Shown one piece after another: positions 14,134-46,739 of a stretch of 64,000 nt of DNA. Source of the stretch: Ignavibacteria bacterium (lineage in GTDB: Bacteria > Bacteroidota > Ignavibacteria > Ignavibacteriales > SURF-24); contig JAAXKN010000004.1 in assembly GCA_025612375.1 (NCBI GenBank), positions 62,001 through 126,000 of the forward strand, given 5' to 3'. Each line of letters starts with the position of its first letter. The first letter of the stretch is position 1. A program made the translations under genes and the position numbers. The notes below the pieces were generated by a model, which was not told the origin of the DNA, made no database searches, and saw nothing but the letters and a program-made list of their open reading frames with translations.

Positions 14134-14153
14134 TAAATATCCCGTCAATTTAT

Positions 14154-16681: not shown

Positions 16682-16774
16682 ACAGTTCCCGGTAAAACAG
16701 TTTCCGGTAAACGGAATTTTCTAATTCAACTTGCTATAAAAAATCAAAACAGGTATTTTACTGAAAAAACAGCA

Positions 16775-26415: not shown

Positions 26416-28144
26416 GATCCTCCTTTGCCGTACTTTCAGCTTTATTTATCAGGTCAAGCACAACCGCAGGCTTGATTCCCAGGTACTGAAAAAACTGAAA
26501 GAGCAGATCTATCTGGCTGTCATAAATGTTAAGTATGGCTATTGTTTCAGAAAGCCCTGTTTTTTTGTACTCGCTGAAATCAAAACGGGAAATGCGCTGA
26601 ATGCGGTAGAGCTCTTCACCTTCCTTTTTTATACTCTCTGCATACGACAGATTATTGCGTGCAGAATTAAGACTGATGTGAGATGATTTAAGCCTGAATA
26701 AAAAATCGTTTACCTGCAGGTTTATGTTTTCTTTTGTCCTTTTAAGGTTCTGCTCCTGCTGTTCATAATCTTCAATTGCAAGCTCCCTTTGGATCTCTGC
26801 GGGTGAAGAAAAGAGACTGAACCTGTAGTTCAGGCCTACATTCCATGCAATGCCGTCGGGTTTCCGGAAAAGGCCGCCCAGAGAATTAGGTATGGTGGAA
26901 TATCCGAGCTCATCAGATTCAAAAACTGCCATGTTTCCTGTAATTGAAAGGTCAGGCTTGTGCTGGTTTAGCGAATAGCTTAGATTCACCTTTGCCTGAT
27001 CAAGCGACTTCTGAGAAAGTTCGATCTCGGGGTGATTGTAGACGAGTTTATTGGAATCGTCATTTAAGTAGCTGTCCATTAAAAACTTTTCAAAGGTTTC
27101 GAGGTATACTTGTATTGAATCCAGGGCAGGAATAAACAGGCTCATATCCTGCGAGCCGGCAGCTTTAACCGGGTTTAGCTTTGCTGAAAAAGATATATAG
27201 TCAAAGAGCATTGCGTCTTTATCTGAAAGCATCTGGCGGTACTCTTTTTCAATCCGCAGGCGGTCGTAGACCGAGATGAGGCTTTTGGAAGTAAGTACCT
27301 GTTGATCCTTCAGCTGGACATCTGTAAGTGCAATAAGTTCATTGGTCAGTTTAAGCTTGCTCCAGAGAAAGTATATCTTGAAGTAATTTTTGATGGTTTC
27401 ATATGATATGCTGTTTTGGGCAAGAAGGGAGTTTGTCTTTGCGATATCAATGTTTATCCTTGTGATCTTTTTATCTGCCTCAACCTGTGAGCCATCGCGT
27501 CCGGCATTCTTAAACAAGGGGAGCTCAAAACTGTTGGATAAAACAGCGCTCCACGGGTATCCGTATGCCCTGGGAAGCACCCTGTTCTTTAATGAGAGAT
27601 TAAGTGCGTTAATGGACAAACCATATGAAGTTTTGTAATTAAGACCCATGCTGTATGACTGAAGGAAATCCCTGTAATCAGTACTTGCATGGAGCTCAAT
27701 TTCCCTTTCCTCCCACCTTAAAGGCTGTGGAATCCACATAACTCCACGGCCACCATTAGGAAGCCTGTAGTCGGATTTGATAGGGTTTTTGTTATCCCAT
27801 TCTACAGGGACCCTTGCATTAACGTCAACCAGCCTGTCATATGACCGGTAGCCCTGGACTCCCGCAGACAAATTAAAATATGGCTTATACGCCTCATCGG
27901 AGAGTGAAAGCTGCAGGTCGTACTTACGGACCTGGTTTTTAAGTGAACTGATCTCGTAAGAATTACTTACCTGGTAGCGTATTACTTCCCCCAAATCCCG
28001 CAGCTTCAGTGTGTCAAATACGGCTGAACGGCCTGGAAAGATCCTGTCGAAATTTTCAAGTACATCGCTTTCCGTCTGTGCATTAGCTGCAGAGGCGGCA
28101 GTTACGGCAATTATAAACAGTATTCTAGTGCAGAACTTCAGCAT
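26396..28144 (-). CDS. TolC-like outer-membrane efflux channel
   Basis: The 582-residue protein has a signal peptide (ILFIIAVTAASAANAQ) and long alpha-helical stretches with coiled-coil character, interspersed with strand segments such as GIAWNVGLNYRFSLFSSPAEIQRELA. The pattern fits outer-membrane factor proteins of type I secretion. TolC repeats are diverged, and the protein is longer than usual (about 450-500). GGGAG precedes the ATG. It overlaps genes on both sides by 20 bp, so it is translated together with the PhnD-like protein and the ATP-grasp genes. The evident role is the exit channel for the HlyD/ABC exporter of the same operon. Confidence 0.8.
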   Translation of the reverse strand: MLKFCTRILFIIAVTAASAANAQTESDVLENFDRIFPGRSAVFDTLKLRDLGEVIRYQVSNSYEISSLKNQVRKYDLQLSLSDEAYKPYFNLSAGVQGYRSYDRLVDVNARVPVEWDNKNPIKSDYRLPNGGRGVMWIPQPLRWEEREIELHASTDYRDFLQSYSMGLNYKTSYGLSINALNLSLKNRVLPRAYGYPWSAVLSNSFELPLFKNAGRDGSQVEADKKITRINIDIAKTNSLLAQNSISYETIKNYFKIYFLWSKLKLTNELIALTDVQLKDQQVLTSKSLISVYDRLRIEKEYRQMLSDKDAMLFDYISFSAKLNPVKAAGSQDMSLFIPALDSIQVYLETFEKFLMDSYLNDDSNKLVYNHPEIELSQKSLDQAKVNLSYSLNQHKPDLSITGNMAVFESDELGYSTIPNSLGGLFRKPDGIAWNVGLNYRFSLFSSPAEIQRELAIEDYEQQEQNLKRTKENINLQVNDFLFRLKSSHISLNSARNNLSYAESIKKEGEELYRIQRISRFDFSEYKKTGLSETIAILNIYDSQIDLLFQFFQYLGIKPAVVLDLINKAESTAKEDHALLNR

Positions 28145-30383: not shown

Positions 30384-31639
30384 TTGTTTCTCTCCTTAAA
30401 TGAGGAAGGATGTATATTGTACTTTGTGCAAAGCTGGTAAATCCTTGAGGCTGACAATCCCGTGGATTTTGCCACTAACTTAATTTCACCCCTGTGTTCA
30501 ATCATCATTTTTATCAGGTTATCCCGGAATGGAGCTTTATCAGAGCCTTCAGCAGCCTCTCCAGCAAGCGGTGAATTTACAGGCAAAGGATTGTTCATTT
30601 CCCTAAATCTCATCTGATAGCTTTCCGTCAGGTGCTCTATTGAAGCTGCGCTGCCCTCGGGAGTCAAGGCAATAATGAGCTTTGCCATATTTTCAAGCTC
30701 CCTGATGTTGCCGGGATATTCGTACTTTGTGAAAAGAAATTCTTTAAGCTCCAGGCTTAATTCCGGAACCGGGAGTTTTAATTCCACGGATGTATTTTTG
30801 AGAAAGTAATCCAAAAGCAGCGGTATCTCATCTTTCCTTTCCCTGAGGGGCGGCATGCAGATTTCACATACAGACAGCCTGTAGTAAAGATCCTCCCTGA
30901 ACTTTCCTTCCGAGATAAGAGCCCCTAAGTTTTTGTTTGTTGCGGCAATTACACGCACATTGACGTTGACAGTTTTGTCAAAGCCGATTTTCTGAATCTC
31001 TCCAAACTGGAGCACGCGCAAAAGCTTTACCTGCGTGCTTTCATTTAGCTCGCCGATTTCATCAAGAAAAATTGTGCCCCCGTCGGCTTCTTCAAACTTT
31101 CCCGGCCTTAAGACTGCTGCGCCGGTAAATGAGCCTTTCTGGTATCCGAAAAGTTCTGCTTCAATCAGCTGCTCCGGTATGGCTCCGCAGTTTACAGGAA
31201 GAAACTTTTCCCTTCTGCTTAACTGGTGAATTACCTTTGCAAATACTTCCTTGCCCGTTCCTGTTTCACCCGTAATTAAAATGGGGTAGCCCGTTTTTGC
31301 AAAACGCACGGCCGTAGTTAAAAGCTTAATTATTTTTGGGTTTCTTCCGATGAAGTTCGGAAATTCAACCTCCGGGATCTCTTTGGTATCCGTAAAAAAC
31401 ACATTATTCAGCGGTGAAAACGCTACAATCTGCCCGCGCAGCAGATCCAGTTCTGTCAGCATCGACCGCCTTTCACCTTCCAGCAGGCGGCTGTTTGCTA
31501 TTACCTGCCCCCGCAGAACCTCAACGTGAAGCAGCATGTTGCTTATCCTGTTCCCGGAATTGTAGAATGTTGCAGTTACTTTGGGCTGCGTGCCTTTATT
31601 ATCTTCAAGAGGAAGAATTTTCAGTTTAGTGTTTTTCAT
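30380..31639 (-). CDS. Sigma-54-dependent transcriptional activator
   Basis: This 419-residue bacterial enhancer-binding protein has a central AAA+ domain with Walker A GETGTGKE, the sigma-54 contact loop GSFTGA (a GAFTGA variant), Walker B GGTIFLDEIGEL and the R-finger region REDLYYRL. The C-terminal 45 residues form a Fis-like HTH (EIKLVAKSTGLSASRIYQLC). The N-terminal 90 residues have no receiver or GAF domain, so control may be by level, partner protein or unknown ligand. It lies inside the exporter operon, and a sigma-54-like promoter with two upstream dyads precedes the precursor genes. Activation of the precursor operon is thus the leading inference. Confidence 0.9.
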   Translation of the reverse strand: MKNTKLKILPLEDNKGTQPKVTATFYNSGNRISNMLLHVEVLRGQVIANSRLLEGERRSMLTELDLLRGQIVAFSPLNNVFFTDTKEIPEVEFPNFIGRNPKIIKLLTTAVRFAKTGYPILITGETGTGKEVFAKVIHQLSRREKFLPVNCGAIPEQLIEAELFGYQKGSFTGAAVLRPGKFEEADGGTIFLDEIGELNESTQVKLLRVLQFGEIQKIGFDKTVNVNVRVIAATNKNLGALISEGKFREDLYYRLSVCEICMPPLRERKDEIPLLLDYFLKNTSVELKLPVPELSLELKEFLFTKYEYPGNIRELENMAKLIIALTPEGSAASIEHLTESYQMRFREMNNPLPVNSPLAGEAAEGSDKAPFRDNLIKMMIEHRGEIKLVAKSTGLSASRIYQLCTKYNIHPSSFKERNN

Positions 31640-31657: not shown

Positions 31658-34600
31658 TTACTCGGCCCCAAGCTGATCCTTGGCCATGGCGTAATAAAAA
31701 CCTCTTTGCTTTATGAGTTCATCGTGGGTGCCTTTCTCCAGGACTAACCCGTCTCCAAGAAAGCATATTATGTCGGCGTTCCTTACCGTGCTCAGCCTGT
31801 GGGCAATTATGAAGGCTGTACGGTTAACCAGTATATTATTAAGATTTTCCTGTATCCTTTTTTCCGATTCCGCATCCAAAGCCGATGTGGCTTCGTCGAA
31901 AATAAATATCTTAGGATTTCTGTAAAGAGACCTGGCTATGCAGATCCTCTGCTTCTGTCCGCCAGAGACTGCAAGGCCCCTTTCGCCTACAATTGTCTTA
32001 TAGCCAGCCGGAAGCTGCATGATGAATTCATGAGCGGCAGCCATTTCTGCAGCCTCACGTACCCTCTTTTCATCGGGGTTTATGTCACCCAGGGCTATGT
32101 TTTCCATTACAGTCCCGCTGAAAAGAAAACTCTCCTGAAGAACCATCCCTATATTTCTTCTTAATGAAAGAAGATTTATGTTCTTTATATCAACGCCGTC
32201 AATCATTAAAGAGCCGCCAGTAGGCATTATAAAGCCGGGGATCGTTTTTATAAGAGTCGACTTTCCGCAGCCCGATTTCCCCACAAAGGCTACAACCTGC
32301 CCGGGCTCAACCTTGAGGTTTATACTCTTAAGGACGAGCGGGGAGTCTTCCGAACCGTAACGGAACTGCAGGTCCTTGAACTCGATCCTCCCTTCACAGT
32401 GAGCCATCTCATGTTTGACTTCCACCCCGGCTACTGGGGGCTTTTCTTCAGGCTCGCACTCAAATACATCGTTTAATCTGTCCATTGCAACCGAGACCGA
32501 CTGGTAGTTGTCCCATAGCCCCACGATGCTCATAATAGGCCCCATAACTGAACCTATAAGAGCATTAAATGCCATTAGCTGACCGATGGACATTGAGCCG
32601 TTTATTACCTGGTTGCTTCCTACCCACAGTATCGCTACAGTTGATGCGGTGTTCAGTGTCTGGCTTATTACTCCAGACACCAGTCCCAGTTTCTGCGACT
32701 TAAAAGACAGGTTGACAGACTTCAGGAAAGACTCTTCCCAGCGGTTTCTGACGTTCCACTCTGTCCCGTTAGCCTTTATCGTTTCAATGCCGTGTATTGC
32801 TTCAATCAGATAGGATGACTGATCACTGCTGACCATAAACTGCTCGTTGCTTATCCTCTTGAAAATGGGAGTAAAGACAAAGGTCAGTGCGATAAAAAAG
32901 GGAATAAACGCGAGTACCACGAGCGAAAGCGTTACACTGTAGAGAAACATCATCTGCAGATAAATAATCAGCATTATGACGTTAAGGACAGTTGAAATGG
33001 ATGCATCGGTAAGTATGGCCCTGATCTTTGAGTTTTCACCAAAACGCGTTATTGTGTCACCGAGCTTCCGGTTGTAGAAATAGCTCATCGGAAGGCTGAG
33101 CGTGTACTTGAAAAACTCGGCCAGCATACGCAGATCCAGCTTGGCCGAAATGGTTGCAATGATAAACTGCTGGGCGCTTGAGGTTAATGTCGAAAAGAAT
33201 GCCACAAGCACCATTCCCATCAGCATCATGTTCAGCAGGGAGGTGTTTTTATATACAATTACATTATCAAGTATCGACTGAATAAAAAGAGGGCTTGCCA
33301 GGCCGAGAACGTTTAGTATTAAGGCCCCAATGAAAACTTCAATTAAGAACATTTTCATCGGCTTCAGGTAATTAATATACCTGAAGATAGGGTTCTTTGC
33401 CGGCTTGAGCTCATTCAGCCTTTCTGTAGGCTCCAGCTCAATTGCGTAACCGGTCCAGCTTTTTCTGAACTCGCTGTGCGTGATCTTCCTAATACCTATG
33501 GCAGGATCGGCTACCCACACAAACTCCCTGGAAATTTTGAAGAGCACGATCCAGTGATATCCCTGCCAGTGAAGTATGGCGGGCAGATTAACATCCTTCA
33601 GCGATGGGTACGTAAGCTTGAGGCCGCGCGCCCTGTAGCCCAGGTTTTCTCCTGCCTTGCATACAGCAGCCATTGAGGCGCCGGCAACAGATACGTTTGC
33701 CATCTCTCTTACCATTCCCATGCTCAGTTTGTGCCCATAATACTTGGACACCATCGTGAGGCACGCTGCGCCGCAGTCCATCTCATCATGCTGCCTGAGC
33801 CAGGGGAATTTCTTTATCTTCTTTCCCTCGTCAAACGAAGGAAACTCGTCTTCATTCTCACTGCTGTTGTGTGAGGTGAGCTCCCGTTGTCTTCTTTCCT
33901 CATTTTCATAACTGTTTATTTTGTCAAGGAAAGCATCCCTCAGGGCACCGTTTAGAGCAAATATCTCTTCAACATAGCGGTGTGGTATTTCCAGTACTGT
34001 CGAGGCTGTCTTTGCCAAAGCTTCATAACCCTGCTTCCTGTCGCTAATTGCCCCGTATTCTCCCGCGAAGTCGCCTTTCTGGGCAAGCCCGACGAGGAAT
34101 TTCCCCTCAACCATATTCCTGTATATCTCAAAGGAGCCGCTTACAACATAATAAAGAGAGTTATTCATTTCGTCCTGGCTGAAGATTGCTTCTCCTTCTT
34201 CATACCTGGAGACCCATACACTTTCAGAGAGCTCATTAAGCCAGGTTTCATCAATCTTCTTTACTGCAACAATCGATGTGAGCACTTTTTTAAGTTCGGA
34301 AGATGCAATGCTCCTCTTGAGCTTTTCGGCTATCGGGGCCATCTCAGGCATGCGGGCATTGACCTCAAAGACCAGGGTCTCATCTGCCGAAGAAATGGAA
34401 TAATCCCACCTGGCGGCTTTTACAAAGGACATCTCTCCCGTATAATCTCCTTCATTCAGCTTCCCGATGCTCCTGAGCCTGTCGTCAATTTTTTTCTTGA
34501 GGCGCAGGCTTCCTGAAATGACTGATATGAAGGTGTTTTGCTCGTCACCTTCCTGATAAAGCTCCTCACCAAGGCTGAGTTTCCTTGTTGTTGTATTGCC

Positions 34601-34690
34601 GGAAAGAAGCTCCATGTCCTCAGCCGTAAGCCCGGAGAAGAGTGAAACTGAATTCAGGCGTTCTATAATTTCGTCTTCTTTATAGTACAT
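31658..34690 (-). CDS. C39-peptidase ABC exporter (PCAT) with two cyclic-nucleotide-binding-like domains
   Basis: The 1010-residue protein has two cNMP-binding-like domains (about 10-130 and 150-265) and a peptidase C39 domain (about 295-425) with C306 (DCGAAC), H379 (GYHWIVLF) and D395 (VADPA). ABC transmembrane helices (about 440-720) and an ATPase follow, with Walker A GKSGCGKST, signature VSGGQKQR and Walker B IFIFDEATSALD. PCATs cut double-glycine leaders and export the remainder. All catalytic parts are present. The two precursors across the divergent promoter have VTGG leaders and are the obvious substrates. The gene lies directly after the HlyD gene in the same operon. The fused cNMP domains are known from some cyanobacterial exporters; what they bind here is unknown. 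Confidence 0.93.
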   Translation of the reverse strand: MYYKEDEIIERLNSVSLFSGLTAEDMELLSGNTTTRKLSLGEELYQEGDEQNTFISVISGSLRLKKKIDDRLRSIGKLNEGDYTGEMSFVKAARWDYSISSADETLVFEVNARMPEMAPIAEKLKRSIASSELKKVLTSIVAVKKIDETWLNELSESVWVSRYEEGEAIFSQDEMNNSLYYVVSGSFEIYRNMVEGKFLVGLAQKGDFAGEYGAISDRKQGYEALAKTASTVLEIPHRYVEEIFALNGALRDAFLDKINSYENEERRQRELTSHNSSENEDEFPSFDEGKKIKKFPWLRQHDEMDCGAACLTMVSKYYGHKLSMGMVREMANVSVAGASMAAVCKAGENLGYRARGLKLTYPSLKDVNLPAILHWQGYHWIVLFKISREFVWVADPAIGIRKITHSEFRKSWTGYAIELEPTERLNELKPAKNPIFRYINYLKPMKMFLIEVFIGALILNVLGLASPLFIQSILDNVIVYKNTSLLNMMLMGMVLVAFFSTLTSSAQQFIIATISAKLDLRMLAEFFKYTLSLPMSYFYNRKLGDTITRFGENSKIRAILTDASISTVLNVIMLIIYLQMMFLYSVTLSLVVLAFIPFFIALTFVFTPIFKRISNEQFMVSSDQSSYLIEAIHGIETIKANGTEWNVRNRWEESFLKSVNLSFKSQKLGLVSGVISQTLNTASTVAILWVGSNQVINGSMSIGQLMAFNALIGSVMGPIMSIVGLWDNYQSVSVAMDRLNDVFECEPEEKPPVAGVEVKHEMAHCEGRIEFKDLQFRYGSEDSPLVLKSINLKVEPGQVVAFVGKSGCGKSTLIKTIPGFIMPTGGSLMIDGVDIKNINLLSLRRNIGMVLQESFLFSGTVMENIALGDINPDEKRVREAAEMAAAHEFIMQLPAGYKTIVGERGLAVSGGQKQRICIARSLYRNPKIFIFDEATSALDAESEKRIQENLNNILVNRTAFIIAHRLSTVRNADIICFLGDGLVLEKGTHDELIKQRGFYYAMAKDQLGAE

Positions 34691-34692
34691 AT

Positions 34693-36111
34693 CTATTTAT
34701 TTTCATCCTCCCCGCTTAAGTAGTCAAAGAATTTTCCTATCGGGGCAAAAACAAGTTCAATTATCCGCTTTTTGCCGACTACAACCTCTGCAAGGCCATT
34801 GGCGCCATAGATCAGGTTTATGCGCGGGTTCTTTTTAGTAAAACCAACCTGAGCTTCATATACATAACCCAGGCCCTCAACAAGCTTTGTGTCTTTTGCA
34901 AGACTGACCAGCTTGCCTTCCTGAACTCCATATTCCTGATAAGGAAAAGCGTTGAATTTTACAAATACAGGCTGACCTACCTTTACCTTTGAAATATCCT
35001 TGTTCTCAATGTAGATCATTCCATATCTCGGGAAATCATTTCTTATTATTCTGCAGATAACTTCACCCTGATTTATCATCTGGCTTGACTTCACAAAGAG
35101 CTGGCTTACTACACCTGGGAACTGTGCCTTTACTATTGCCTGGCTTTGTGTTATCTCAACGCCCTCGGTTCTGCTGTTGACATTTTTTATTTGCAGATTG
35201 TAATCGCCAAGCTGTACTATGAGGCTCTGGCGGAGTGAGCTCATCTGCTTAAGCGCATTAAGAACTTCTGTCTTAAATGAGCTGATATAATTATCTATTG
35301 ATGAAGAGACAGAGTAGTAGTCCCTTTCCGAATTCATCAAATCCGGACTGGAGATAATGCCTTCTTTTAATAAAGACTTGTTTTCCCTGTAGATCTTTTC
35401 ACGTTTGGACAGAAGAATGTCCGACTTTCTTACTTCATTTAATATGTTATTTGCTTTTACCTTCAAGTCGGATATCATCAGCTGGTATTCATTAAGGCCG
35501 CTGTAGTTTTTTACGTCGTATGCAGCCGAATCAAAACTGAAGTTGTTAAGGTCTGAAGTGACTTCACCGGGAACGGGAACCCTGAACCTCTTGTCGCGTT
35601 TTGCGTAGTACTCTCCAATGCCTTTCGTCTGCTTTATAAACTCATTTAGCTTCAGTATCTTTTTTATCACCTCATCGCGCTTCTCTACAAAATCCTTCCT
35701 TTCCAGGCCTGTTGCATTAATGTTGGGTGAGTAAATTGACAGGAGCACATCGTTGAAAGTGACAATGTCATTTTCATTGATCCCGATTGAAGAGACAATG
35801 CCCGAGAAAGGCGCCTGCACGACGTAATCTTCACCTTTTATGATTAGTGCCGAAGTAACGGTATCATCCACCTCGACAATGGTAGAATAGATTAGGGCGC
35901 CTATCAGAATTACAAAAATGAGATAAATGGGACCACGTAAGACCCAGCTCGGGGGTGTATCCAGAAATGTGGCAACGGATGTCGAAAATTCCTGCCTTGT
36001 TGCGTGCTCAAAAAGATTTAACGCCTTATATTTGACCGGCCCGCCGGGTGCATTGGTATTCTCTTTCTTGCCCTTTTTGAAAAGAGAATAGATCTTTTTT
36101 ATTTTATCCAT
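34693..36111 (-). CDS. HlyD-family membrane fusion protein
   Basis: The 472-residue protein has a cytoplasmic N-terminus and one transmembrane helix (about 58-82, in IYLIFVILIGALIYSTI). A lipoyl/barrel-sandwich half-motif (VVQAPFSGIVSSIGINENDIV) comes before a long coiled coil (about 140-320). The second half-motif (IVKAQFPGVVSQLFVKSSQMI) and a beta-barrel end the protein. This is the usual periplasmic adaptor joining an ABC exporter to a TolC-type channel. It ends two bases before the exporter start. No strong Shine-Dalgarno sequence is seen. Confidence 0.9.
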   Translation of the reverse strand: MDKIKKIYSLFKKGKKENTNAPGGPVKYKALNLFEHATRQEFSTSVATFLDTPPSWVLRGPIYLIFVILIGALIYSTIVEVDDTVTSALIIKGEDYVVQAPFSGIVSSIGINENDIVTFNDVLLSIYSPNINATGLERKDFVEKRDEVIKKILKLNEFIKQTKGIGEYYAKRDKRFRVPVPGEVTSDLNNFSFDSAAYDVKNYSGLNEYQLMISDLKVKANNILNEVRKSDILLSKREKIYRENKSLLKEGIISSPDLMNSERDYYSVSSSIDNYISSFKTEVLNALKQMSSLRQSLIVQLGDYNLQIKNVNSRTEGVEITQSQAIVKAQFPGVVSQLFVKSSQMINQGEVICRIIRNDFPRYGMIYIENKDISKVKVGQPVFVKFNAFPYQEYGVQEGKLVSLAKDTKLVEGLGYVYEAQVGFTKKNPRINLIYGANGLAEVVVGKKRIIELVFAPIGKFFDYLSGEDENK

Positions 36112-36176: not shown

Positions 36177-36228
36177 CCTGCGTCTACTGGCCTGCGTCTA
36201 CTGGCCTGCTTCAGAAGGCCTACTTCAG
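36177..36228. repeat. Short 14-bp tandem repeat
   Basis: CCTGCGTCTACTGG occurs twice in tandem (36177-36190, 36191-36204), followed by a diverged third copy (36205-36218) and a partial fourth (36219-36228) that covers the stop codon of the LRR gene. It looks like replication slippage at the end of the gene. Confidence 0.7.
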
Positions 36229-38337
36229 TATCATGATCTTCTGGGCTTCAGTAAAGCTTCCGCACTTCATCATTACAAAGTAAACCCCGGTTGGAAGATA
36301 CGGGCTTCCCCAGGAAAATTTGTGGTAGCCTTTTGACATCTGTCCCTTCATTATGTCTTCCACCTTTCTGCCCGCTGCGTCATATACACTTATCTCCATG
36401 TAGTCGTCTTTCGGTATTGAAAAGTGCAGCGTAGTGGTTGGATTAAAGGGATTAGGGTATGGCGCGTAAAGTGCGTAAGTACCCTTTTTTATTTTGTCAT
36501 TCGGTGTCTGACAGTGCTGGCTGAAGAGTCCTGTTACAGCTACCGGAAACGGATTCGGATGCAGGAGAAATAAAGGTATGCCTTCCGGATTCTGCATGCC
36601 GTCTTCATCGCAGTAAAGGTAGTTATTAGTTACGTCAAGATTTACAACCTTAAGGCTTTTAACCGTGTCGGGTATAGTCTTAAGGAAGTTATCCGAAATG
36701 TTTATCACGGCAACGGGGTTCTTCAGTTTTGTCAGTACAAGCGGTATTGAACTGAACTTGTTGTTATCAAGATTTATGTTTGCAAGGCTGTCAAGAAGAG
36801 AGAAACTCTCAGGCAGATCACTTAGCTCGTTGTGCGACAGAGTAATATTGACCAGTCTCATTTTCCCAATGCTCTCGGGGAGCTTAAGAAGTTTGTTGTT
36901 CTTAAGACTCAGCACCCTTATATTCTGAAGGCTGCTGAAACTCCCGGGCAGCGTCTCAAGTTTGTTATTCTCCAGGTTCTGCACTTCTATTCCTGTCAGT
37001 CTGCCGTAGCTCTCCGGCAGGTATCTCAGATCGTCATTCTGCAGTGTGATTACCTGAAGCTGCTTTCCTATCCGGCCAATTGAATCAGGCAGCGCCTTTA
37101 ACGGGTTGTCATTCAGATAAAGATTTATCAGCGTACGCAGATTGCCAAAAGACTCGGGAAGCAGTGTAAGTGAGTTATTATTCAGGAATACCGATTCCAG
37201 CAGAGGAAAACTCCCAAATCCTGAAGGGAGTGAAGTAAGACTGTTGTTTGAAAGGTCAAGCATCTTTAACCGGGGAATTTTGCCTATGTCCCCGGGAAGG
37301 AGCGATATTTTGTTGAATGATGCATTCAAAGCCTCAAGGCTGTCCATACGCGGCATGTTCCCGGGTAAAGTTATAAGGAGGTTCTTTGAAACATCCAGTG
37401 ACTTTAGTCCCTTCAGATTAGTAATCCCTTCGGGGAGGCTTTCAAATCTGTTTGAAGAAAGGAATAACTTATTCAGGCGGCTTAAGCTGAACATTCCTTC
37501 AGGAAGCGCCTTCAAGTAGTTATTCTCCAGGTTCAAGAGGCTAAGTTTCTTCAGGCCTGCCATAGTTCCCGGAAGCGCCAGAATTGAGTCGTAGCCGAGA
37601 GAAAGGGTTTCAATGTCAGAAAGGCTCCCCAGGCTGTTGGGCAGCCTGTAAAGTGATCTGTTGTTATCCGCGTACAGCTCTTTAAGCGGCAGCCCGCTCA
37701 GGTCCTCTTCTTTTATATCTTTAATAATATTGCTGGAGAGATTAAGGTATTTGAGGCTTTTGAGGTCCTTAAAAAATTTAATTGATGAGCCGAAACCGGG
37801 AATATAATACAGCGTATCTGCCGGCAGCACCTGCAGAGCATTTGCCGATACATCAAGATAGGATAGTGAACCAAGGTGTACGAACTTTTTAGGAAGTCCG
37901 GTTAACCTGTTTCCGGAAAGGCTTAAGAAACGAAGATTTGTAAAAAGCTGGATATTGTCATCCAGACGTTTAATCGTATTATTATTCAGAATCAGCGTAT
38001 CTAAATTTGTAAGCTTGTATAAATTAACCGGAAGAAAGGTAATCTTGTTATAGCTTAAATCCAGATAATGCAGGGCTGTCAGATTTTCAACCGTTTCGGG
38101 AATATTTTCCAGGTCGTAATTGCTTACGATAAGCTTCTCAAGTCTGCCTGTGAAATAATTCCATTTCTGATAACCTATCGAGCCCGGGGCTTCTCCATAA
38201 AGGCTGTTCGCCGTGCAAAGGTCCCTTATGAATTGAACATCATCCTCATTAAGCGAGAACTGAGCAAAGGTTTTCTGAAGGAAAAAGTTCTGAAAAACAG
38301 CGATAAAGAGTAAAATTTTCAGCCAGTTTATGTTCAT
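36220..38337 (-). CDS. Secreted leucine-rich-repeat protein with T9SS sorting domain
   Basis: The 705-residue protein has a signal peptide (ILLFIAVFQNFFLQKTFAQ) and then about twenty leucine-rich repeats of about 23 residues (pattern L-x-x-L-D-L-S-x-N-x-I-x-x-L-P). It ends in a T9SS type A tail (YPNPFNPTTTLHFSIP and a final AQKIMILK). LRR domains bind proteins, and the T9SS tail predicts surface anchoring or release. It appears to be the first gene of the leftward exporter operon, about 108 bp ahead of the HlyD gene, and is divergent from the SUMF1-fold gene. A role as surface receptor or immunity/target factor for the exported peptides is speculative. Confidence 0.85.
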   Translation of the reverse strand: MNINWLKILLFIAVFQNFFLQKTFAQFSLNEDDVQFIRDLCTANSLYGEAPGSIGYQKWNYFTGRLEKLIVSNYDLENIPETVENLTALHYLDLSYNKITFLPVNLYKLTNLDTLILNNNTIKRLDDNIQLFTNLRFLSLSGNRLTGLPKKFVHLGSLSYLDVSANALQVLPADTLYYIPGFGSSIKFFKDLKSLKYLNLSSNIIKDIKEEDLSGLPLKELYADNNRSLYRLPNSLGSLSDIETLSLGYDSILALPGTMAGLKKLSLLNLENNYLKALPEGMFSLSRLNKLFLSSNRFESLPEGITNLKGLKSLDVSKNLLITLPGNMPRMDSLEALNASFNKISLLPGDIGKIPRLKMLDLSNNSLTSLPSGFGSFPLLESVFLNNNSLTLLPESFGNLRTLINLYLNDNPLKALPDSIGRIGKQLQVITLQNDDLRYLPESYGRLTGIEVQNLENNKLETLPGSFSSLQNIRVLSLKNNKLLKLPESIGKMRLVNITLSHNELSDLPESFSLLDSLANINLDNNKFSSIPLVLTKLKNPVAVINISDNFLKTIPDTVKSLKVVNLDVTNNYLYCDEDGMQNPEGIPLFLLHPNPFPVAVTGLFSQHCQTPNDKIKKGTYALYAPYPNPFNPTTTLHFSIPKDDYMEISVYDAAGRKVEDIMKGQMSKGYHKFSWGSPYLPTGVYFVMMKCGSFTEAQKIMILK

Positions 38338-38479: not shown

Positions 38480-40048
38480 ATGGTTTCAATGAAAGCTTTT
38501 ATCTTTGTTTCGGCCATATTATTAGTATTCCCTTTCTATTCTTTTGCCGGAGAAATTCAGGTGAAGAATGCCCGGATCGATGAAATAAACAATCAAAAAA
38601 AATATGCATTCATTAGCTTCGATGTATCCTGGGAAAATTCATGGCGGAGTGACATTACCGGAATGGGCTACGCCGAACCGTATAACTACGACGCTGCATG
38701 GGTATTTGTAAAATTCAGGGATAAGGCAGGGCGCTTCAGGCATGCAAGCCTTTCAGCAATCAGCAAAAGCCACCGTTCAGACGGGAAAGCCGCCATCAGT
38801 GCCTCGCGCGACGGCAGGGGGGTGTTTGTTTATTCGGCAAAGAATTTTTCCGGACCAGCAGACTACAAAGGAATTAAACTGAAGTGGAATTTCGGCTCCG
38901 ATAACATAGATATAAATCAGGATACTGAAATCAGAGTCCTGGCAGTTGAAATGGTCTTTATCCCCGGGGGCTCTTTTTATGCCGGCGACGGAGGCTCTTA
39001 CGGGAGCTTCTTTAACACCAGGCAAGGTGTGCCTGCACTCGTTTCGCAGGAGCCGGTGCTTCTTAAGGCCTCAAGCAACAGCTTTGATGACGGGGCACTT
39101 TCTAATGAGGGAGTGTGGGTTTCAGGAACCTCAGGCATCAGATCTAAAGATGGGGATTTTGAAAATCCCGAATTTCCTACGGGATATGGCGCCTTTTACG
39201 TCATGAAGTATGAAATTTCACAGGGGGAATATGCAGGATTTCTGAACCTTATTTCCGCCGGGCAGTCGCATGGGCGTGACCTTAATGCCGAAGGCCAATA
39301 CAGAAATACAATTACGTTTAATGGCAGGCAGTTCGTTGCAAAGCGACCTAAACGTGCCTGCAACTTCCTGAGCTGGATGGATGGTGCTGCTTATGCCGAC
39401 TGGACAGGCATGCGCCCGATGACAGAACTGGAATTTGAAAAAGCCTGCCGCGGATACAATTCTAATACAAATGATGCCAATTTGCCCGTGAAAAACGAGT
39501 ATGCCTGGAATGATGATTCCATTGCGGCTGCGGGAGTAATTGCAGGAACTGAAGACGGTTCTGAATCTGTAAATGGCAATGCGGCCTTTGACAACGTGAC
39601 CTATAAAGGTGGGGACGGATTGTACGGCCCCTTGGGGTGCGGAGTCTTTGAAAAACCCGGCCCGCGGAACCTTTCAGGCAAAAGCTACTACGGTGTCTGT
39701 GAACTAAGCGGGAACCTTTCTGAACAGTGTGTCACACTTGGCAATACAGCAGGGCGTTCATTTATGGGAAACGACGGCGACGGAGTGCTGACTGAAACAG
39801 GAGAAGCCGATGAGAGCAGCTGGCCGGGAATTAACGGCAATGCCGATGAGGACAAGGCCAACCTTAAGTACATTGGAAACATCGTGGAATCTCCCGGGAT
39901 CACTGCTGCAGCAGGAAGCGGGCAGAGGGGCGGAAACTGGTATACAAGAAAAACCTTCCTCATGATAAGCGACAGGGCATTTGCCTCGCATCCTTCAGGC
40001 CGGAGGTCAGAGTACGCCGGTTTCAGATGTGTAAAATATGCACAGTAA
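38480..40048 (+). CDS. Secreted SUMF1/FGE-fold protein without the catalytic cysteines
   Basis: The 522-residue protein has a signal peptide (ILLVFPFYSFAG), a beta-rich N-terminal domain (about 25-155) and a SUMF1-type C-terminal domain (about 160-520). SUMF1 marks are MVFIPGGSFYAGD, FYVMKYEISQGEYAGFLN, RPMTELEFEKACRG and the terminal RGGNW and YAGFRCVK. True formylglycine-generating enzymes carry two cysteines after the RGG-W/Y motif. Here that stretch is YTRKTFLMIS, so oxidase activity is unlikely. The fold also occurs in T9SS/gliding proteins (GldK/GldJ) and in lectin-like binders. It is divergent from the exporter operon and upstream of the precursor genes. An ATG three codons later is an alternative start. 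Confidence 0.83.
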   Translation: MVSMKAFIFVSAILLVFPFYSFAGEIQVKNARIDEINNQKKYAFISFDVSWENSWRSDITGMGYAEPYNYDAAWVFVKFRDKAGRFRHASLSAISKSHRSDGKAAISASRDGRGVFVYSAKNFSGPADYKGIKLKWNFGSDNIDINQDTEIRVLAVEMVFIPGGSFYAGDGGSYGSFFNTRQGVPALVSQEPVLLKASSNSFDDGALSNEGVWVSGTSGIRSKDGDFENPEFPTGYGAFYVMKYEISQGEYAGFLNLISAGQSHGRDLNAEGQYRNTITFNGRQFVAKRPKRACNFLSWMDGAAYADWTGMRPMTELEFEKACRGYNSNTNDANLPVKNEYAWNDDSIAAAGVIAGTEDGSESVNGNAAFDNVTYKGGDGLYGPLGCGVFEKPGPRNLSGKSYYGVCELSGNLSEQCVTLGNTAGRSFMGNDGDGVLTETGEADESSWPGINGNADEDKANLKYIGNIVESPGITAAAGSGQRGGNWYTRKTFLMISDRAFASHPSGRRSEYAGFRCVKYAQ

Positions 40049-40288: not shown

Positions 40289-40735
40289 ATGGCAAGAATT
40301 AAATTAAATGATCTGGAAGCTAACCAGCAGCTTGATGCTGAAGCACTGAAAAATGTAACAGGCGGCGCAGGAACATATACCAATGCTGCAAATACTGGTA
40401 CAAAAACAGGCGGCAATTCCACCAACTATGGTACACAAGGTGGCGGCACAGGCGGACAGGGCGGATATTCAAGCGGCGGCTATACACAGGGCGGAAGCGG
40501 TTTCGGCGGCCAGGGTATTGGCGGCGGCGCATCTTCAAGCGGATGGGGCTTCCTGAATTTTGGCGGCGGTAATAAAGGCGGCGCAGGCTACGGCGGAAAT
40601 GCATCGGCTTCAACCGTTGGCACAGTAGGCGGCTCAGGCGGAGCCGGCGGATCTGCTGTCGGAGTAATGAATTCCGGAAATGTAACTGACAATATGTCTG
40701 AATCTGTTTCAATTCCTGTAACACTAAGCTTATAA
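40289..40735 (+). CDS. Glycine-rich precursor peptide with double-glycine leader, copy 1
   Basis: The 148-residue product begins with a leader (ARIKLNDLEANQQLDAEAL, then KNVTGG, residues 1-26) of the type cut after GG by C39 peptidases. The remaining 122 residues are about one third glycine, with Ser, Thr, Asn, Ala and aromatic residues and no cysteine. The core holds only two acidic residues (D and E in VTDNMSESV) and two lysines, and all four are conserved in copy 2. The C-terminus SVSIPVTLSL is strand-like. A strong AGGAGG precedes the ATG. I recognise no named family beyond the leader type. It may be a glycine-rich bacteriocin-like peptide, a modified RiPP or a surface polymer subunit. 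Confidence 0.85.
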   Translation: MARIKLNDLEANQQLDAEALKNVTGGAGTYTNAANTGTKTGGNSTNYGTQGGGTGGQGGYSSGGYTQGGSGFGGQGIGGGASSSGWGFLNFGGGNKGGAGYGGNASASTVGTVGGSGGAGGSAVGVMNSGNVTDNMSESVSIPVTLSL

Positions 40736-40745
40736 GGAGAATAAT

Positions 40746-41198
40746 ATGTCAAGAATAAAACTTAATGATCTCGAAGAAAACCAGCAGCTTGATGCCGAAG
40801 CCTTGAAACAGGTTACCGGCGGAAATAACTTTACAAACTCTGCAAACACCGGTACAAAAACTGGCGGCAACTCCACAAACTACGGCACACAAGGCGGCGG
40901 CACAGGCGGTTCTGGCGGCGGATCCTACGGCGGATGGACCTCAGGCGGCAGCGCCGCAGGCGGTACAGGCTTCGGCGGAAGTGCTTCAGGCGGAGCAGGA
41001 AGCTGGGGATTCTTAAATTTCGGCAGCACTGGCAATAAAGGCGGCGCAGGCTACGGCGGAAATGCCTCGGCTTCAACCGTTGGCGCTGTCGGCGGTTCAG
41101 GCGGAGCCGGCGGATCTGCTGTCGGTGTCATGGGTTCGGGAAATGTTTCCGATAACGTATCGGAATCTGTTTCAATACCAATTACCATGTCTTTATAA
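40746..41198 (+). CDS. Glycine-rich precursor peptide with double-glycine leader, copy 2
   Basis: The 150-residue product is a paralogue of copy 1, 10 bp downstream with its own Shine-Dalgarno sequence (AAGGAG). The leader (residues 1-26, ending KQVTGG) differs at few positions. Blocks conserved between the two cores are NTGTKTGGNSTNYGTQGGG, WGFLNFG, NKGGAGYGGNASASTVG and the tail SVSIPITMSL. The central glycine-rich segment differs in sequence and length. The two acidic residues (in VSDNVSESV) and two lysines of the core are again the only charged ones. A terminator follows directly, so the two precursors form their own short transcript and can be made in large amounts. Confidence 0.85.
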   Translation: MSRIKLNDLEENQQLDAEALKQVTGGNNFTNSANTGTKTGGNSTNYGTQGGGTGGSGGGSYGGWTSGGSAAGGTGFGGSASGGAGSWGFLNFGSTGNKGGAGYGGNASASTVGAVGGSGGAGGSAVGVMGSGNVSDNVSESVSIPITMSL

Positions 41199-41382: not shown

Positions 41383-42699
41383 ATGGAAAAATTTTTCTTT
41401 AGTGTTCGTAATTCCCGGATCAATTGCACTGACGTCCTAAAGTTCATGAAATTAACCGGCCTTTTTCATACCGCTCACACCTATACAGCAATGAACTCAA
41501 TCCTGAAAGAATTTGCAAAAAAAGCAGGTGTAACCGTATCTGATGAGATGCTGCAGAGTTATGCTGACTATAAAAGAAAGCAGCTTGGACTTCTCAAGGC
41601 CGAGCAGATGCAGAAGTATCTGGATACGCTTGAAGTATCTCTGGACGATTGGGAAAATTCACTTGAGGATGAGCTCTACCGAAACGAGTTGAGAAATAAA
41701 TTGGGCGGCTCTGTTTATGTCGGGGATGCCTGGAATATACTTAAAACAATTCCCGAAATCAGAAACAGCATAAATGACCTCATAGCCGAAAAAGCCGCAA
41801 ACTGTAAATTGGACCTTAACGATGAAGAACTTCAGAAAGAATCCGACGCATTAAGAAGAGCTCTGAACCTCCACAAAAAAAGTGACCTGGAAGTTTACCT
41901 GACCAGCCTTAACATGAATGAGGACGACTGGGAAAAAAGCGTAACGGCTAACCTGATGTCAAAGAAATTAAAACAGGAAAATGTCTCTCCTTTAACTAAA
42001 GCAGAAGTGGCAGGCATATTAAACCGTTATCCCGTAATAAAAGATCTTTTAAGCAAACTTGTTTTCGGCAACGTGATAAGAGCCAAGGCTTCCGAACTGA
42101 ACCTTACGGTAAGCGATGATGAACTGAACGCCTACACCGAAAATTTCCGCAGGGCTCTTGCCCTTCATAAGCTTGAACATTTTAACATATGGCTCAATGC
42201 TGCCGGACTGACAATAGATGATTTTGAAATTATGGCTGAAACAGCCATACTGACAAAAAAAGTTATCCTGAATACTGATGAGATTCTCCATAGCGGCAAT
42301 ATTGAAAAAGGGGTGAAATGCAGCTCATTCTTCAGCGATGCTCTTCTGGAAGTAATTTCACAGGAACTCGTTGTTGCAGACGCAAAAGAAAAAGGCGTCA
42401 GGATAACAAATAAAGATCTTCAGGAACTCTCAGATGCCTTAAGGCGTGTTAACGGATACCATAATGCTTCAGTCTTCAAAAAGCACCTTGAATTCTACGA
42501 TCTTTCAGCTGAGTACTGGGAAGAGTACGTGGAAAAACAGGCCTTTATCAGGAAGATGAAACAATCTCAGACAACGGACAAAAAACTTCTGGAGTACCTC
42601 CACAACAATAACGAAGTTTTAGATTCAGTGAAGGCCGGTGCATTCAAAGAGTATGCTTATAACCTGTCGGACAAGACAGCACTTGAATGGTTCAACTAA
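41383..42699 (+). CDS. Cytosolic protein of four SurA-N-like helical repeats
   Basis: The 438-residue protein has no signal peptide and no prolyl-isomerase domain. It contains four related units (about 15-107, 115-198, 207-296, 315-394). Each has the pattern VSDEELQ-x-x-A-D-x-x-RR-x-L-x-L-x-x-x-x-x-x-x-x-YL-x-x-x-x-x-x-x-DDWE. A single unit of the same type begins the downstream PpiC isomerase. The pattern resembles the SurA N-terminal chaperone domain. GGAGG precedes the ATG. By position it should bind the precursors in the cytoplasm, perhaps at the leader, before or during export. That role is inference. Confidence 0.75.
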   Translation: MEKFFFSVRNSRINCTDVLKFMKLTGLFHTAHTYTAMNSILKEFAKKAGVTVSDEMLQSYADYKRKQLGLLKAEQMQKYLDTLEVSLDDWENSLEDELYRNELRNKLGGSVYVGDAWNILKTIPEIRNSINDLIAEKAANCKLDLNDEELQKESDALRRALNLHKKSDLEVYLTSLNMNEDDWEKSVTANLMSKKLKQENVSPLTKAEVAGILNRYPVIKDLLSKLVFGNVIRAKASELNLTVSDDELNAYTENFRRALALHKLEHFNIWLNAAGLTIDDFEIMAETAILTKKVILNTDEILHSGNIEKGVKCSSFFSDALLEVISQELVVADAKEKGVRITNKDLQELSDALRRVNGYHNASVFKKHLEFYDLSAEYWEEYVEKQAFIRKMKQSQTTDKKLLEYLHNNNEVLDSVKAGAFKEYAYNLSDKTALEWFN

Positions 42700-42729: not shown

Positions 42730-43488
42730 ATGGATGAAGTAGTTTTATTAAGTATCAATGAAAACCCTGTTACAAATTCTCAGATTGTTGTAAGGCTGAA
42801 AGCCAAAGGCGAATATAAAAAAGCTCTTTCTGAACAGATGACTGCTGTTGCCTTAAAGGACTACGCCGGAAAAAACGGCATTTCAGTTTCTGACGGTGAA
42901 CTGCAGGAATATGCAGATAAAAAAAGAAAAGAACTCGGACTTTTCTCTGTATCGGCTACAGAAAAGTACTTCTCCAATCTGGGTATAAACATAGACCAGT
43001 GGAGTGACGGGCTTGAAGAAGAACTCTTAAAGGAAAAAGTGAAGAAAGCTGTTGTCACTGAGGAAAAGGTAAAGGAATACTTTGAATCAAACCGTCCGAG
43101 ATTTATGTGCGTCCCGCTGCACAGAATAGTCGTTAAAGAAAAACCTATGGCTGAGGAAATAAGAATGCAGATTGAAGATGAAGATGAGGATTTTTCAGCT
43201 CTGGCTAAAAAGTACTCAATAGATTCTTCCACGGCTTCAGCAGGCGGCTATATGGGAGTAATAAAAAGAGGTGCACTGCCCGTTGAAGTTGAAGCAAAAG
43301 TATTCAGCGCTTCGGAAAATGCTCTCAGCGGCATTTTTGAGGACTCTGAAGGGTATTCTTTATATAAGACCGGGAAAGTTGTTTATCCTGAACTCGACGA
43401 GACTATGAAGGAAAATATAACAAGTGGGCTCTTTGACTTGTGGACAAATAACCTCCTTAACTCTGCAGCAGTAAAATTCCCGAACTGA
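42730..43488 (+). CDS. PpiC-type (parvulin) peptidyl-prolyl isomerase, cytosolic
   Basis: The 252-residue protein starts with a SurA-N-like helical unit (about 8-108), homologous to the four units of the upstream gene. A parvulin domain follows (about 125-220; RPRFMCVPLHRIVV, FSALAKKYSIDSSTASAGGYMGVIKRGALP, VFSASENALSGIFEDSEGYSLYK). No signal peptide is present, unlike periplasmic SurA or PrsA. It starts 30 bp after the repeat-protein gene and is co-transcribed with it. PpiC-like proteins occur with C39-type exporters in some other bacteria. The likely role is to keep the glycine-rich precursors foldable or exportable. Confidence 0.88.
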   Translation: MDEVVLLSINENPVTNSQIVVRLKAKGEYKKALSEQMTAVALKDYAGKNGISVSDGELQEYADKKRKELGLFSVSATEKYFSNLGINIDQWSDGLEEELLKEKVKKAVVTEEKVKEYFESNRPRFMCVPLHRIVVKEKPMAEEIRMQIEDEDEDFSALAKKYSIDSSTASAGGYMGVIKRGALPVEVEAKVFSASENALSGIFEDSEGYSLYKTGKVVYPELDETMKENITSGLFDLWTNNLLNSAAVKFPN

Positions 43489-43612: not shown

Positions 43613-44725
43613 TTAAATTCCTGCATTTATATTAAAGCTGACAATGTAATAATTCCTGTTGAAGTGGTCAAAGCCCCAGCCGCCCATGCGCAGGTCGCCA
43701 AAAAGATCACGATAACTGTAATCATCATAGTCCGGAAGAGGGAGCCTGGTAAAATCTATGCTGAGTGTTAAAGGAAATGCAATATTGGCCAGTCTGCTAA
43801 GGGGAATTTCCAATCCTGCGCCATATGTTAGCTGATGAATACCAGTAACTGACCCGTCGGTAATCTGTGTGTCAAGAGTCTCGGAATAATGCCCGATTCT
43901 CAGTTTCAGCACTTCCCATAAAGATGCTTCCATGCCCAGCCTGACCTGGGAAAAATACCTGGTTTCAAAGACGTCCATATATTCCCCGGCCAAAAGCAGC
44001 TTTAATGGCCTTAGGTCATATCTGCCGGCTTTATCTGTCCTGAATTCATAGGAGGCACCAAGATGCATGATTGTTGGAAAATATATGCTGCTGTTATTAA
44101 AACGGCTCTTTACTTTGGAGTATCCGGCGTTAACAAGACTTAGCCCAAGATAAAGATTCTGATTATCCAAACTCCCCAAATGGAAACGTTTCAGAAGGCC
44201 CAGGTCAAAATAATATGTGTTAAGGGCAACTGGAGACAGATTGTCCCATAAATCATATTCCTTCTCAAAAAAGTAATTCAGGTTAACGCCCAAGCTGAGA
44301 TCAGGCAAAATCTCATTTGAATAGTTCAGCATGAATAAACGGTTGATGTTCCTGTCGGGAAAGTATTTCTCCTCGTCGGGCCTTCCTACAGAGAACGTGA
44401 AGTAGCTGAAACCGAAAGCCCCGTACTTCCCGGAATTAAAGCTGATGCCGTAGGTATTATAATATCCTTCAGTTTCCTGGGGATAATTGGGATTCATGTG
44501 TGAAACCTCAAAGTTCATGCCTTTTGAAAATGAAAGAGCCGCAGGATTATCAAGTATGGAATAAGGGCTTTCATGAAGTGTTACCTGCCCGCGCCCCAGG
44601 GCTTCACTTCTGGCATTCGGCCTTTGGTACAAAAGGATTCTTTCGGCGTAGCCTTCATACTGCTGGGGAAAACAATCTGAAGAATAAGAGATGATAACGA
44701 AAAGAATAAGAACTATCTTTTTCAT
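43613..44725 (-). CDS. PorV/OmpP1-like outer-membrane protein
   Basis: The 370-residue protein has a signal peptide (IVLILFVIISYSSDCFPQ), then the segment RSEALGRGQVTLHESPYSILDNPAALSF. This corresponds to the G-R-G-x-x-x-A-x-x-D-x-x-x-x-x-x-NPA start of the PorV/PorQ-UPF0164 family. Repeated amphipathic strands run to the C-terminus. Such barrels include the T9SS shuttle protein PorV, but many paralogues exist with unknown roles. It is a single leftward gene converging with the isomerase unit. Assignment to T9SS itself is not supported. Confidence 0.75.
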   Translation of the reverse strand: MKKIVLILFVIISYSSDCFPQQYEGYAERILLYQRPNARSEALGRGQVTLHESPYSILDNPAALSFSKGMNFEVSHMNPNYPQETEGYYNTYGISFNSGKYGAFGFSYFTFSVGRPDEEKYFPDRNINRLFMLNYSNEILPDLSLGVNLNYFFEKEYDLWDNLSPVALNTYYFDLGLLKRFHLGSLDNQNLYLGLSLVNAGYSKVKSRFNNSSIYFPTIMHLGASYEFRTDKAGRYDLRPLKLLLAGEYMDVFETRYFSQVRLGMEASLWEVLKLRIGHYSETLDTQITDGSVTGIHQLTYGAGLEIPLSRLANIAFPLTLSIDFTRLPLPDYDDYSYRDLFGDLRMGGWGFDHFNRNYYIVSFNINAGI

Positions 44726-45017: not shown

Positions 45018-46739
45018 ATGAAAAAGATCCTACTGCCCGTTTTCATATTTCTCCTGGGAGTTTCCTCCTATGCCCAGGATGCAGCAAATAAGATCGAAAG
45101 CCTCATGGCCAAGTACAATGAGTACGGATATTTCGACGGAAGTATTCTTGTGGCAGATAAAGACAATGTTGTCTTTAAGAAGGGCTATGGAAAGGCTAAC
45201 ATTGAATGGAACATTTCAAACTCCCCGGATACAAAATTCCGTGTTGGATCAGTTACCAAACAGTTTACCTCAATGCTTATAATGCAGCTGGTGGAAAAAG
45301 GGAAGATAAGTCTTGATGGGAAAATAACAGATTACCTCCCTTACTACAGGAAAGATACAGGCTCCAGGATAACAATCCATATGCTCCTGACACACACGTC
45401 AGGTATACCAAGCTATACCTCTCAGCCGGGCTTTTCTGAAAGGATAAGCCGAATGAATTACAAGCCCGATGACTTTATTAAGGAACAGTGCAGCGGCAGC
45501 CTGGAGTTTGAGCCGGGCTCCCGGATAGTGTATAATAACTCAGGATATTTTATTCTGGGTGCCATAATTGAACACGTTACAGGAAAAAGCTACGAGGCGG
45601 CCCTCAGGGAAAATATACTTGATCCACTTGTAATGAAGAATACGGGCTACGATCATTCCGAAGACATTATTCCGAACAGGGCCTCCGGGTACGACAGGAA
45701 GGGAGATGCCTTCAGGAACACATCTTTCCTCGATATGTCGCTTCCTTATGCCGCAGGCAGCATGTATTCAACGGTTGAGGACCTCCTCCTGTGGGATAAG
45801 GCTCTTCAGACCGATAAACTTCTTTCCCCCGAGCTGAAGAAAAAAATCTTCCGGAAATATATGAAATTTGGTGAGATGTATTACGGCTACGGGTGGATGA
45901 CGGCTAAAAGATTTAACGGGCACGATTCACTTGATGTAATTGCACACGGTGGAAGCATAAACGGATTTAATGCAATGAACTACATGATACCTGAGGCCGG
46001 GCAGTATGTAATTATCTTAAGCAATGCCGGAGCTGCCCCGCTGGACAAAATGACAAACCAGATTATTAACATACTTAATGGAAAAAATGAGCCGGAGCCT
46101 CAAAAGCCTCTGGCCAGAATCCTCTGGAGGACACTTGAACAGGAGGGCTCACAAAGCGCCATTAGCAAGTTCAGAGAGCTTAAAAATAAAAAAGATGAAT
46201 ATGCCTATACCGAAGCGGAGATTAACAATATGGGATATAATCTCCTTTCCGAAGGCAAGACTGATGAGGCAATAGACATCTTCAAACTCAATACAGAGGA
46301 ATTCCCCCAATCATCTAATGCATATGACAGCTATGGCGAAGCCCTCCTTAAAAAGGGCCTGAAGGAAGAAGCTGCAAAGAACTACAGGAAGTCGCTTGAA
46401 CTGAATCCCGGGAATGAAAATGCAGTTAAGGTGCTTAAAGAGCTTGGACAGGGGGACTTCAGCTCTCCTGAAGTAAAGCTGAAGGAAAACGGGCTTAATG
46501 AATTTGCCGGCACTTATCAGCTCGCACCTGGATTCAGCATTAAGGTTACGGTTGAGGGCGATAAAATTTTCGGGCAGGGAACAGGCCAGCCACGCTTTGA
46601 AATGTTTCCTTTGTCTGAGGATAAGTTTTTTCTAAAAGTGGTAAACGCCCAGGTAAGTTTCCAGAGAAAAGACGGGACAGTTTCCGGCATGACGCTCTAC
46701 CAGAACGGGCAGAACCTCCCGGGAAAGAAAGTTGAGTAG
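45018..46739 (+). CDS. Secreted serine hydrolase (class C beta-lactamase/PBP-like) with TPR region
   Basis: The 573-residue protein has a signal peptide (LPVFIFLLGVSSYAQ), then a penicillin-binding-like hydrolase domain (about 25-355). The nucleophile motif is S78-V-T-K81, YNN (VYNNSGYF) and HGG (IAHGGSINGF) are the other motifs. Residues about 375-480 contain TPR-like helices (YDSYGEALLKKGLKEEAAKNY). The last 90 residues form a small beta domain similar to those following other beta-lactamase-family hydrolases. The family includes D-aminopeptidases, esterases and beta-lactamases, so resistance should not be assumed. It is a single gene. Confidence 0.88.
   Translation: MKKILLPVFIFLLGVSSYAQDAANKIESLMAKYNEYGYFDGSILVADKDNVVFKKGYGKANIEWNISNSPDTKFRVGSVTKQFTSMLIMQLVEKGKISLDGKITDYLPYYRKDTGSRITIHMLLTHTSGIPSYTSQPGFSERISRMNYKPDDFIKEQCSGSLEFEPGSRIVYNNSGYFILGAIIEHVTGKSYEAALRENILDPLVMKNTGYDHSEDIIPNRASGYDRKGDAFRNTSFLDMSLPYAAGSMYSTVEDLLLWDKALQTDKLLSPELKKKIFRKYMKFGEMYYGYGWMTAKRFNGHDSLDVIAHGGSINGFNAMNYMIPEAGQYVIILSNAGAAPLDKMTNQIINILNGKNEPEPQKPLARILWRTLEQEGSQSAISKFRELKNKKDEYAYTEAEINNMGYNLLSEGKTDEAIDIFKLNTEEFPQSSNAYDSYGEALLKKGLKEEAAKNYRKSLELNPGNENAVKVLKELGQGDFSSPEVKLKENGLNEFAGTYQLAPGFSIKVTVEGDKIFGQGTGQPRFEMFPLSEDKFFLKVVNAQVSFQRKDGTVSGMTLYQNGQNLPGKKVE

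Follow-up and report, generated by a model that had tools for sequence, protein, structure and literature searches.

The tandem genes at positions 40289-41198 of the window, the whole 64,000-nucleotide stretch of Ignavibacteria DNA analysed here, encode two glycine-rich precursors with a double-glycine leader. The gene cluster around them is best read as a graspetide-like system acting on a protein-sized cargo, a reading to which we give slightly better than an even chance. It features one double-glycine exporter, two ATP-grasp proteins and two SurA/PpiC-like proteins, and is confined to a single Ignavibacteria genus in everything searched. The precursor genes have the following layout, taken from the sequence:

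40289-40735, plus strand: precursor 1, 148 aa (26-aa leader and 122-aa glycine-rich core)
40289-40366, plus strand: leader of precursor 1, MARIKLNDLEANQQLDAEALKNVTGG
40688-40690 and 40700-40702, plus strand: D134 and E138 of precursor 1
40746-41198, plus strand: precursor 2, 150 aa (26-aa leader and 124-aa glycine-rich core)
40746-40823, plus strand: leader of precursor 2
41151-41153 and 41163-41165, plus strand: D136 and E140 of precursor 2

The precursors are 82% identical to each other, and ribosome-binding sites (ggagg and aaggag, respectively) lie close upstream of their ATGs. Both 26-aa leaders end in VTGG, with the double-glycine site at residues 25-26. After this site, each core carries one Asp, one Glu, two Lys and no Arg (K39, K96, D134 and E138 in precursor 1; K38, K98, D136 and E140 in precursor 2), and about three quarters of the core residues are Gly, Ser, Thr, Asn or Ala. 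A Ser or Thr is found five residues before each core acid in all four sequences (two precursors in two genomes). This arrangement would fit two ester rings; with a Ser/Thr content of 24-26%, the fit is a weak hint. The leader lacks Pro, and the Phhx(1,2)h motif is absent from it. This motif is not strictly defining, since only about half of the known graspetide precursors have it (PMC8939145). The core bears no likeness to any known graspetide core, no relative of the precursors was found in the PDB or Pfam, and the AlphaFold model is uninformative (pLDDT 43). No match to a sigma-54 -24/-12 promoter lies near the precursors with up to two mismatches allowed, and across the window matches are no more frequent than expected by chance.

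The cores are polar, with a GRAVY of -0.16 to -0.27 and a highest 19-residue hydropathy of 0.85-1.15. This bears on an alternative in which the pair forms a two-component contact-dependent bacteriocin like CdzC/CdzD of Caulobacter, glycine-zipper proteins that leave the cell through a type I system. The tandem arrangement of two glycine-rich genes with double-glycine leaders and a type I exporter follows this precedent (PMC5380434), but the cores contain no hydrophobic glycine-zipper segment, unlike zippers that insert into membranes. No immunity gene is evident, the precursors lack PDB and Pfam relatives, and a bacteriocin of this kind is improbable.

The precursor genes occur in one other genome only, the Ignavibacteria MAG bin-C14 (G160) of the same genus; apart from this MAG, no further homologues were found in 164 genomes of the order, 395 genomes of the phylum or a scan of GTDB contigs. 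Precursor 1 is 93% identical to its G160 orthologue at the protein level (dN/dS 0.06) with 47% of the 4-fold degenerate sites changed, and precursor 2 is 96% identical (dN/dS 0.02). Because the proteins are kept while 47-49% of the 4-fold sites differ across the two genes, both open reading frames are real coding genes; no other proteins of the cluster are as well conserved as their products. The residue counts bear out the preliminary description of the cores as rich in Gly, Ser, Thr, Asn and Ala, with one Asp, one Glu and two Lys each. Its further argument, that just the Asp, Glu and Lys residues are conserved, fails. All four charged positions of each core are indeed kept in G160, but so is almost the whole core: the four sequences agree at 91 of the 121 ungapped core columns, and at 55 of 85 once all-glycine columns are left out. 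The chance that all four charged columns are invariant is P ~ 0.18. The invariance of these residues is therefore no more than background, and it was rejected as evidence for rings.

Within each genome, codons 41-55 and 102-127 of the two copies are more alike than those of the orthologues—a sign of gene conversion between the precursors. Grouping by species holds for 25 nucleotide sites, and 5 sites are crossed. Since conversion has homogenised parts of the genes, the tandem precursors are not independent witnesses. The leader, the variable middle and the tail lie outside the converted regions. In the acid-bearing tail (codons 136-150), the paralogues differ at 31-38% of the nucleotides and nevertheless keep D, E, S-E-S and SVSIP. 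Because this tail escaped conversion, its conservation between the paralogues reflects genuine constraint, but the constraint is spread over the whole tail, including N, S, V, I and P.

The remaining genes of the cluster are arranged in two runs on opposite strands:

38480-40048, plus strand: FGE-sulfatase-domain protein with an apparent signal peptide (Pfam PF03781), syntenic in G160
41383-42699, plus strand: SurA_N-like repeat protein, 438 aa, without an isomerase domain (SurA_N_3 2e-14 in 3 stretches; TIGR04500 7e-26 in 4 stretches, below cut-off)
42730-43488, plus strand: SurA_N and PpiC rotamase protein, 252 aa (Rotamase 1e-13; TIGR04500 5e-17, below cut-off)
36220-38337, minus strand: leucine-rich-repeat protein with a type IX sorting tail (Pfam LRR_8, Por_Secre_tail), syntenic in G160
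34693-36111, minus strand: HlyD membrane fusion protein (Pfam HlyD_3, TIGR01843)
31658-34690, minus strand: PCAT with two cNMP-binding domains, a C39 double-glycine peptidase and an ABC transporter (Pfam)
30380-31639, minus strand: sigma-54-dependent activator (Pfam Sigma54_activat 2e-64), with a homologue after the PCAT in Burkholderiales
28125-30383, minus strand: protein with a PhnD-like periplasmic binding domain (Pfam Phosphonate-bd 3.8e-19), 75% identical in G160
26396-28144, minus strand: TolC-like outer membrane efflux protein (Pfam OEP 1.8e-19)
25384-26415, minus strand: ATP-grasp 2, predicted catalytically dead partner (motif loss and profile comparison)
24308-25384, minus strand: ATP-grasp 1, graspetide-type ligase predicted to be active (K135, K174, D231-S-R233, D267, D280, N282)

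The minus-strand run is tightly packed from 36111 down to 24308 and leads from HlyD through the PCAT, the sigma-54 activator, the PhnD-domain protein and the TolC-like protein to the two ATP-grasps. The plus-strand run consists of the FGE-domain protein, the two precursors and the two SurA/PpiC-like proteins. Both runs and the intervening leucine-rich-repeat protein are syntenic in G160. The ATP-grasp genes belong to the same cluster as the leaders and cores, though to an opposite-strand operon about 14 kb away. The PCAT carries the only C39 match in the genome, and its C39 peptidase, ABC membrane and ATPase domains are all present (Pfam E 2e-34, 2e-45 and 4e-33); double-glycine leaders of the precursor type number only two. 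Of the 164 genomes of the order, the same 2 have the precursors, ATP-grasp 2 and the TIGR04500-like proteins, and these two are also the only ones with close relatives of ATP-grasp 1. By this conservation and uniqueness, precursors, exporter and ATP-grasps appear to be tied together.

The FGE-domain protein was set aside as a modifier of the precursors because of its apparent signal peptide and because FGE/EgtB-type chemistry usually involves sulfur, whereas the cores are free of Cys. The PhnD-domain protein, of 752 aa, sits inside the type I secretion operon and is conserved in G160. A class C beta-lactamase-fold protein with TPRs (45018-46739) adjoins the cluster and is conserved in G160; the gene between it and the cluster (43613-44725) is not. 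A reading as a defence system found nothing beyond generic ABC-ATPase and cNMP-domain matches.

ATP-grasp 1 is a relative of a peptide macrocyclase and is predicted to be active. Its best solved relative is PDB 7DRM (E 2e-23; 1e-25 with a profile), recorded there as an ATP-grasp domain-containing protein, which we take to be PsnB, the plesiocin macrocyclase. The next structural matches are CdnC and then two microviridin-type ligases. Among NCBIfam models, TIGR04187 matches best (1e-13, at a score of 51 bits far under the cut-off of 350), and MvdD reaches 2e-10; both models describe peptide maturases. As judged by alignment with graspetide ligases (L030, which is chryseoviridin-type, L027, L028/L042 and L029), ATP-grasp 1 retains the D-x-R motif and the residues for ATP/Mg, with the Phe of the DFR motif, at the variable place of D-[FWY]-R, replaced by Ser (I-D231-S-R233). 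ATP-grasp 1 groups with graspetide ligases in a tree whose long branches and few rows back the grouping but not a precise position. Alternatively, ATP-grasp 1 might act like RimK or PGM1 and attach an amino acid or a small molecule to the precursor or to its C-terminus, without making side-chain macrocycles. Weak RimK-family matches (TIGR00768 3e-09, MptN 1e-10) point in this direction, but peptide macrocyclases score better. In addition, the D-x-R element present in ATP-grasp 1 is missing from the order's own RimK-like ligases, which form a separate clade. Such a tailoring activity is very unlikely.

ATP-grasp 2 shares the fold of the graspetide ligases but is predicted to be catalytically dead, since its catalytic residues are replaced (R126, S165, P223-E-R225, F263 and S278 at the corresponding positions). 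It has no family match in Pfam and NCBIfam searches, and comparison with a graspetide-ligase profile by hhalign yields a probability of 96.9% (E 1.9e-10). The AlphaFold model is uninformative (pLDDT 32). No homologues were found in the GTDB contig scan or the 395 phylum genomes, and in the order only the one in G160. The ATP-grasps evolve fastest in the cluster, with 64-65% identity and a dN/dS of ~0.15 for ATP-grasp 1.

Pairs of an active and a degenerate ATP-grasp are also found elsewhere. The branch 8 loci of Makarova et al. 2022 (PMC8939145) resemble this cluster in having an inactive ATP-grasp beside an active one, but there the partner is truncated, peptidases are present and no precursor is identified, whereas here the partner is full-length and candidate precursors are at hand. 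Two further pairs were found. L029 (G419:C13:84500-104000, positions 6791-9956) of the Bacteroidota has, in a row, a 2OG-oxygenase-like ORF, a protein of 247 aa with Lys/Glu repeats (KEGKSEKEK...), an ATP-grasp that is truncated and one of the TIGR04187 type (E 5e-47), which suggests a corallotide-like graspetide locus with a large cargo. In L042 (G512:C1:3397500-3417000, positions 9340-13133), an active-looking ATP-grasp with VDYR, a degenerate ATP-grasp and a 644-aa possible peptidase fit branch 8.

The two SurA/PpiC-like proteins adjoin the precursors. Neither has an evident signal peptide, as judged by eye from the N-termini, and their TIGR04500 scores of 91 and 62 bits fall short of the 180 bits set as the curated cut-off. 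TIGR04500 is one of the families that recur at ATP-grasp loci (PMC8939145), and the synthesis of rosaritide needs the TIGR04500 protein MirC together with the TIGR04187 ligase MirB (PMC13097080). The family was nevertheless rejected as proof of a graspetide: TIGR04500-like PpiC homologues from clusters without ATP-grasp score equally (80-92 bits). In plasmid-borne clusters of Burkholderia, Caballeronia and Leptolyngbya, such a protein adjoins the same kind of PCAT. A sigma-54 activator joins the two in Burkholderiales, while the cyanobacterium Leptolyngbya has PpiC and exporter; no ATP-grasp genes lie around them within stretches of 20-31 kb. Because it is found without ATP-grasp in these three genera, the PpiC-PCAT part is not graspetide-specific and is a general export module for double-glycine proteins; it is the ATP-grasps that point to graspetides. 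The Caballeronia and Burkholderia plasmid loci (L031, L032, L035; positions ~12800-18300) run from HlyD through the TIGR04500-like PpiC and the cNMP PCAT to the sigma-54 activator and have PP2C-like and double-glycine ORFs close by—a related export system for double-glycine proteins.

In the main rival explanation, the precursors would be glycine-rich surface or matrix proteins that leave the cell unmodified, through the C39 transporter and with the help of PpiC-type holdases, much as EbfG proteins are exported in Synechococcus biofilms; the ATP-grasps would act on another molecule. The Burkholderiales module of HlyD, PpiC, PCAT and sigma-54 activator with its nearby double-glycine ORFs would suit such an export, as would the purifying selection over the whole core, which a structural protein would show. 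Double-glycine proteins also serve cyanobacterial biofilms, and the EbfG proteins of Synechococcus elongatus (PMC4997328) resemble the precursors as small secreted proteins with a GG leader; an ATP-grasp, present here, is not mentioned there. Against unmodified export, the ATP-grasps are encoded in the operon of the transporter and conserved together with the precursors, no other leader of the precursor type was found in the genome, and ATP-grasp 1 is closest to peptide macrocyclases. Export of an unmodified protein is possible, though we hold it to be unlikely.

PsnB serves short repeated TTxxxxEE-type cores. The cluster resembles the PsnB system (PDB 7DRM-7DRP) in ATP-grasp 1, which is 29% identical over ~276 residues with the D-x-R and ATP/Mg residues, and differs from it by a single glycine-rich core of 122-124 aa and the predicted dead second ATP-grasp. 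The mir cluster of rosaritide (graspetide group 21; PMC13097080) shares a precursor, a TIGR04187-like ligase (MirB), a TIGR04500-like SurA/PpiC protein (MirC) and a PCAT (MirD). Here, in contrast, there are two TIGR04500-like proteins below cut-off, two ATP-grasps, HlyD/TolC and a much larger glycine-rich core, and the protein at 42730-43488 has the PPIase-like domain that MirC lacks. Corallotide (graspetide group 15; PMC13097080), for which Lys-Asp bonds are reported, is similar in its unusually large cargo and genus-restricted cluster but features five KxxxD repeats and a 2OG oxygenase, neither of which is present here. Corallotide loci also have a PF00144 protein, but the beta-lactamase-fold protein at 45018-46739 carries an apparent signal peptide and belongs to a common family.

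The graspetide-like reading is supported because ATP-grasp 1 matches PsnB, keeps the ligase motifs and groups with graspetide ligases; because proteins of the kind needed by the rosaritide ligase adjoin the precursors; and because the ATP-grasps share the operon of the only exporter and co-occur with the only two leaders. It is weakened because the leader motif is absent, the core is unlike known ones, its charged residues are conserved at background level and the ligase lies ~14 kb away, and likewise by the fast evolution of the ATP-grasps, the low TIGR04187 score and the ATP-grasp-free PCAT clusters. Both ATP-grasp proteins of the preliminary description are present, the second without catalytic residues, and its idea of a graspetide is partly supported, on the enzyme side—PsnB, TIGR04187/MvdD, D-x-R and the TIGR04500-like neighbours—and not on the Asp, Glu and Lys residues. 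With the enzyme features in place and the leader motif lacking, the cluster is not filed as a proven graspetide.

In the pathway that we infer, the two paralogous precursors would be made with their double-glycine leader and kept unfolded or delivered by the SurA/PpiC-like proteins in the cytoplasm. ATP-grasp 1, probably in complex with ATP-grasp 2, would activate the only carboxylates of the core (D134 and E138 in precursor 1). These acids may be joined to the hydroxyls of Ser129 and Thr/Ser133, five residues before each acid, or to Lys, giving two bonds per chain at most. The PCAT would then cut at the double glycine and, with HlyD and TolC, release a stapled protein of ~122-124 residues to the surface or the medium. 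A bolder version, which is decidedly doubtful, holds that an active and a dead ATP-grasp form a heterodimer which, served by SurA-like holdases in the cytoplasm, staples an entire exported structural protein rich in glycine close to its C-terminus; graspetide chemistry would then build extracellular material rather than a small bioactive peptide.

If true, the graspetide-like reading would mean that in Ignavibacteria graspetide chemistry reaches beyond small peptides to secreted, glycine-rich cargo of protein size. The cluster would also offer a compact test of the roles of dead ATP-grasp partners and SurA-like partner proteins, and with two acids per core, the connectivity of the rings would be unusually easy to solve.
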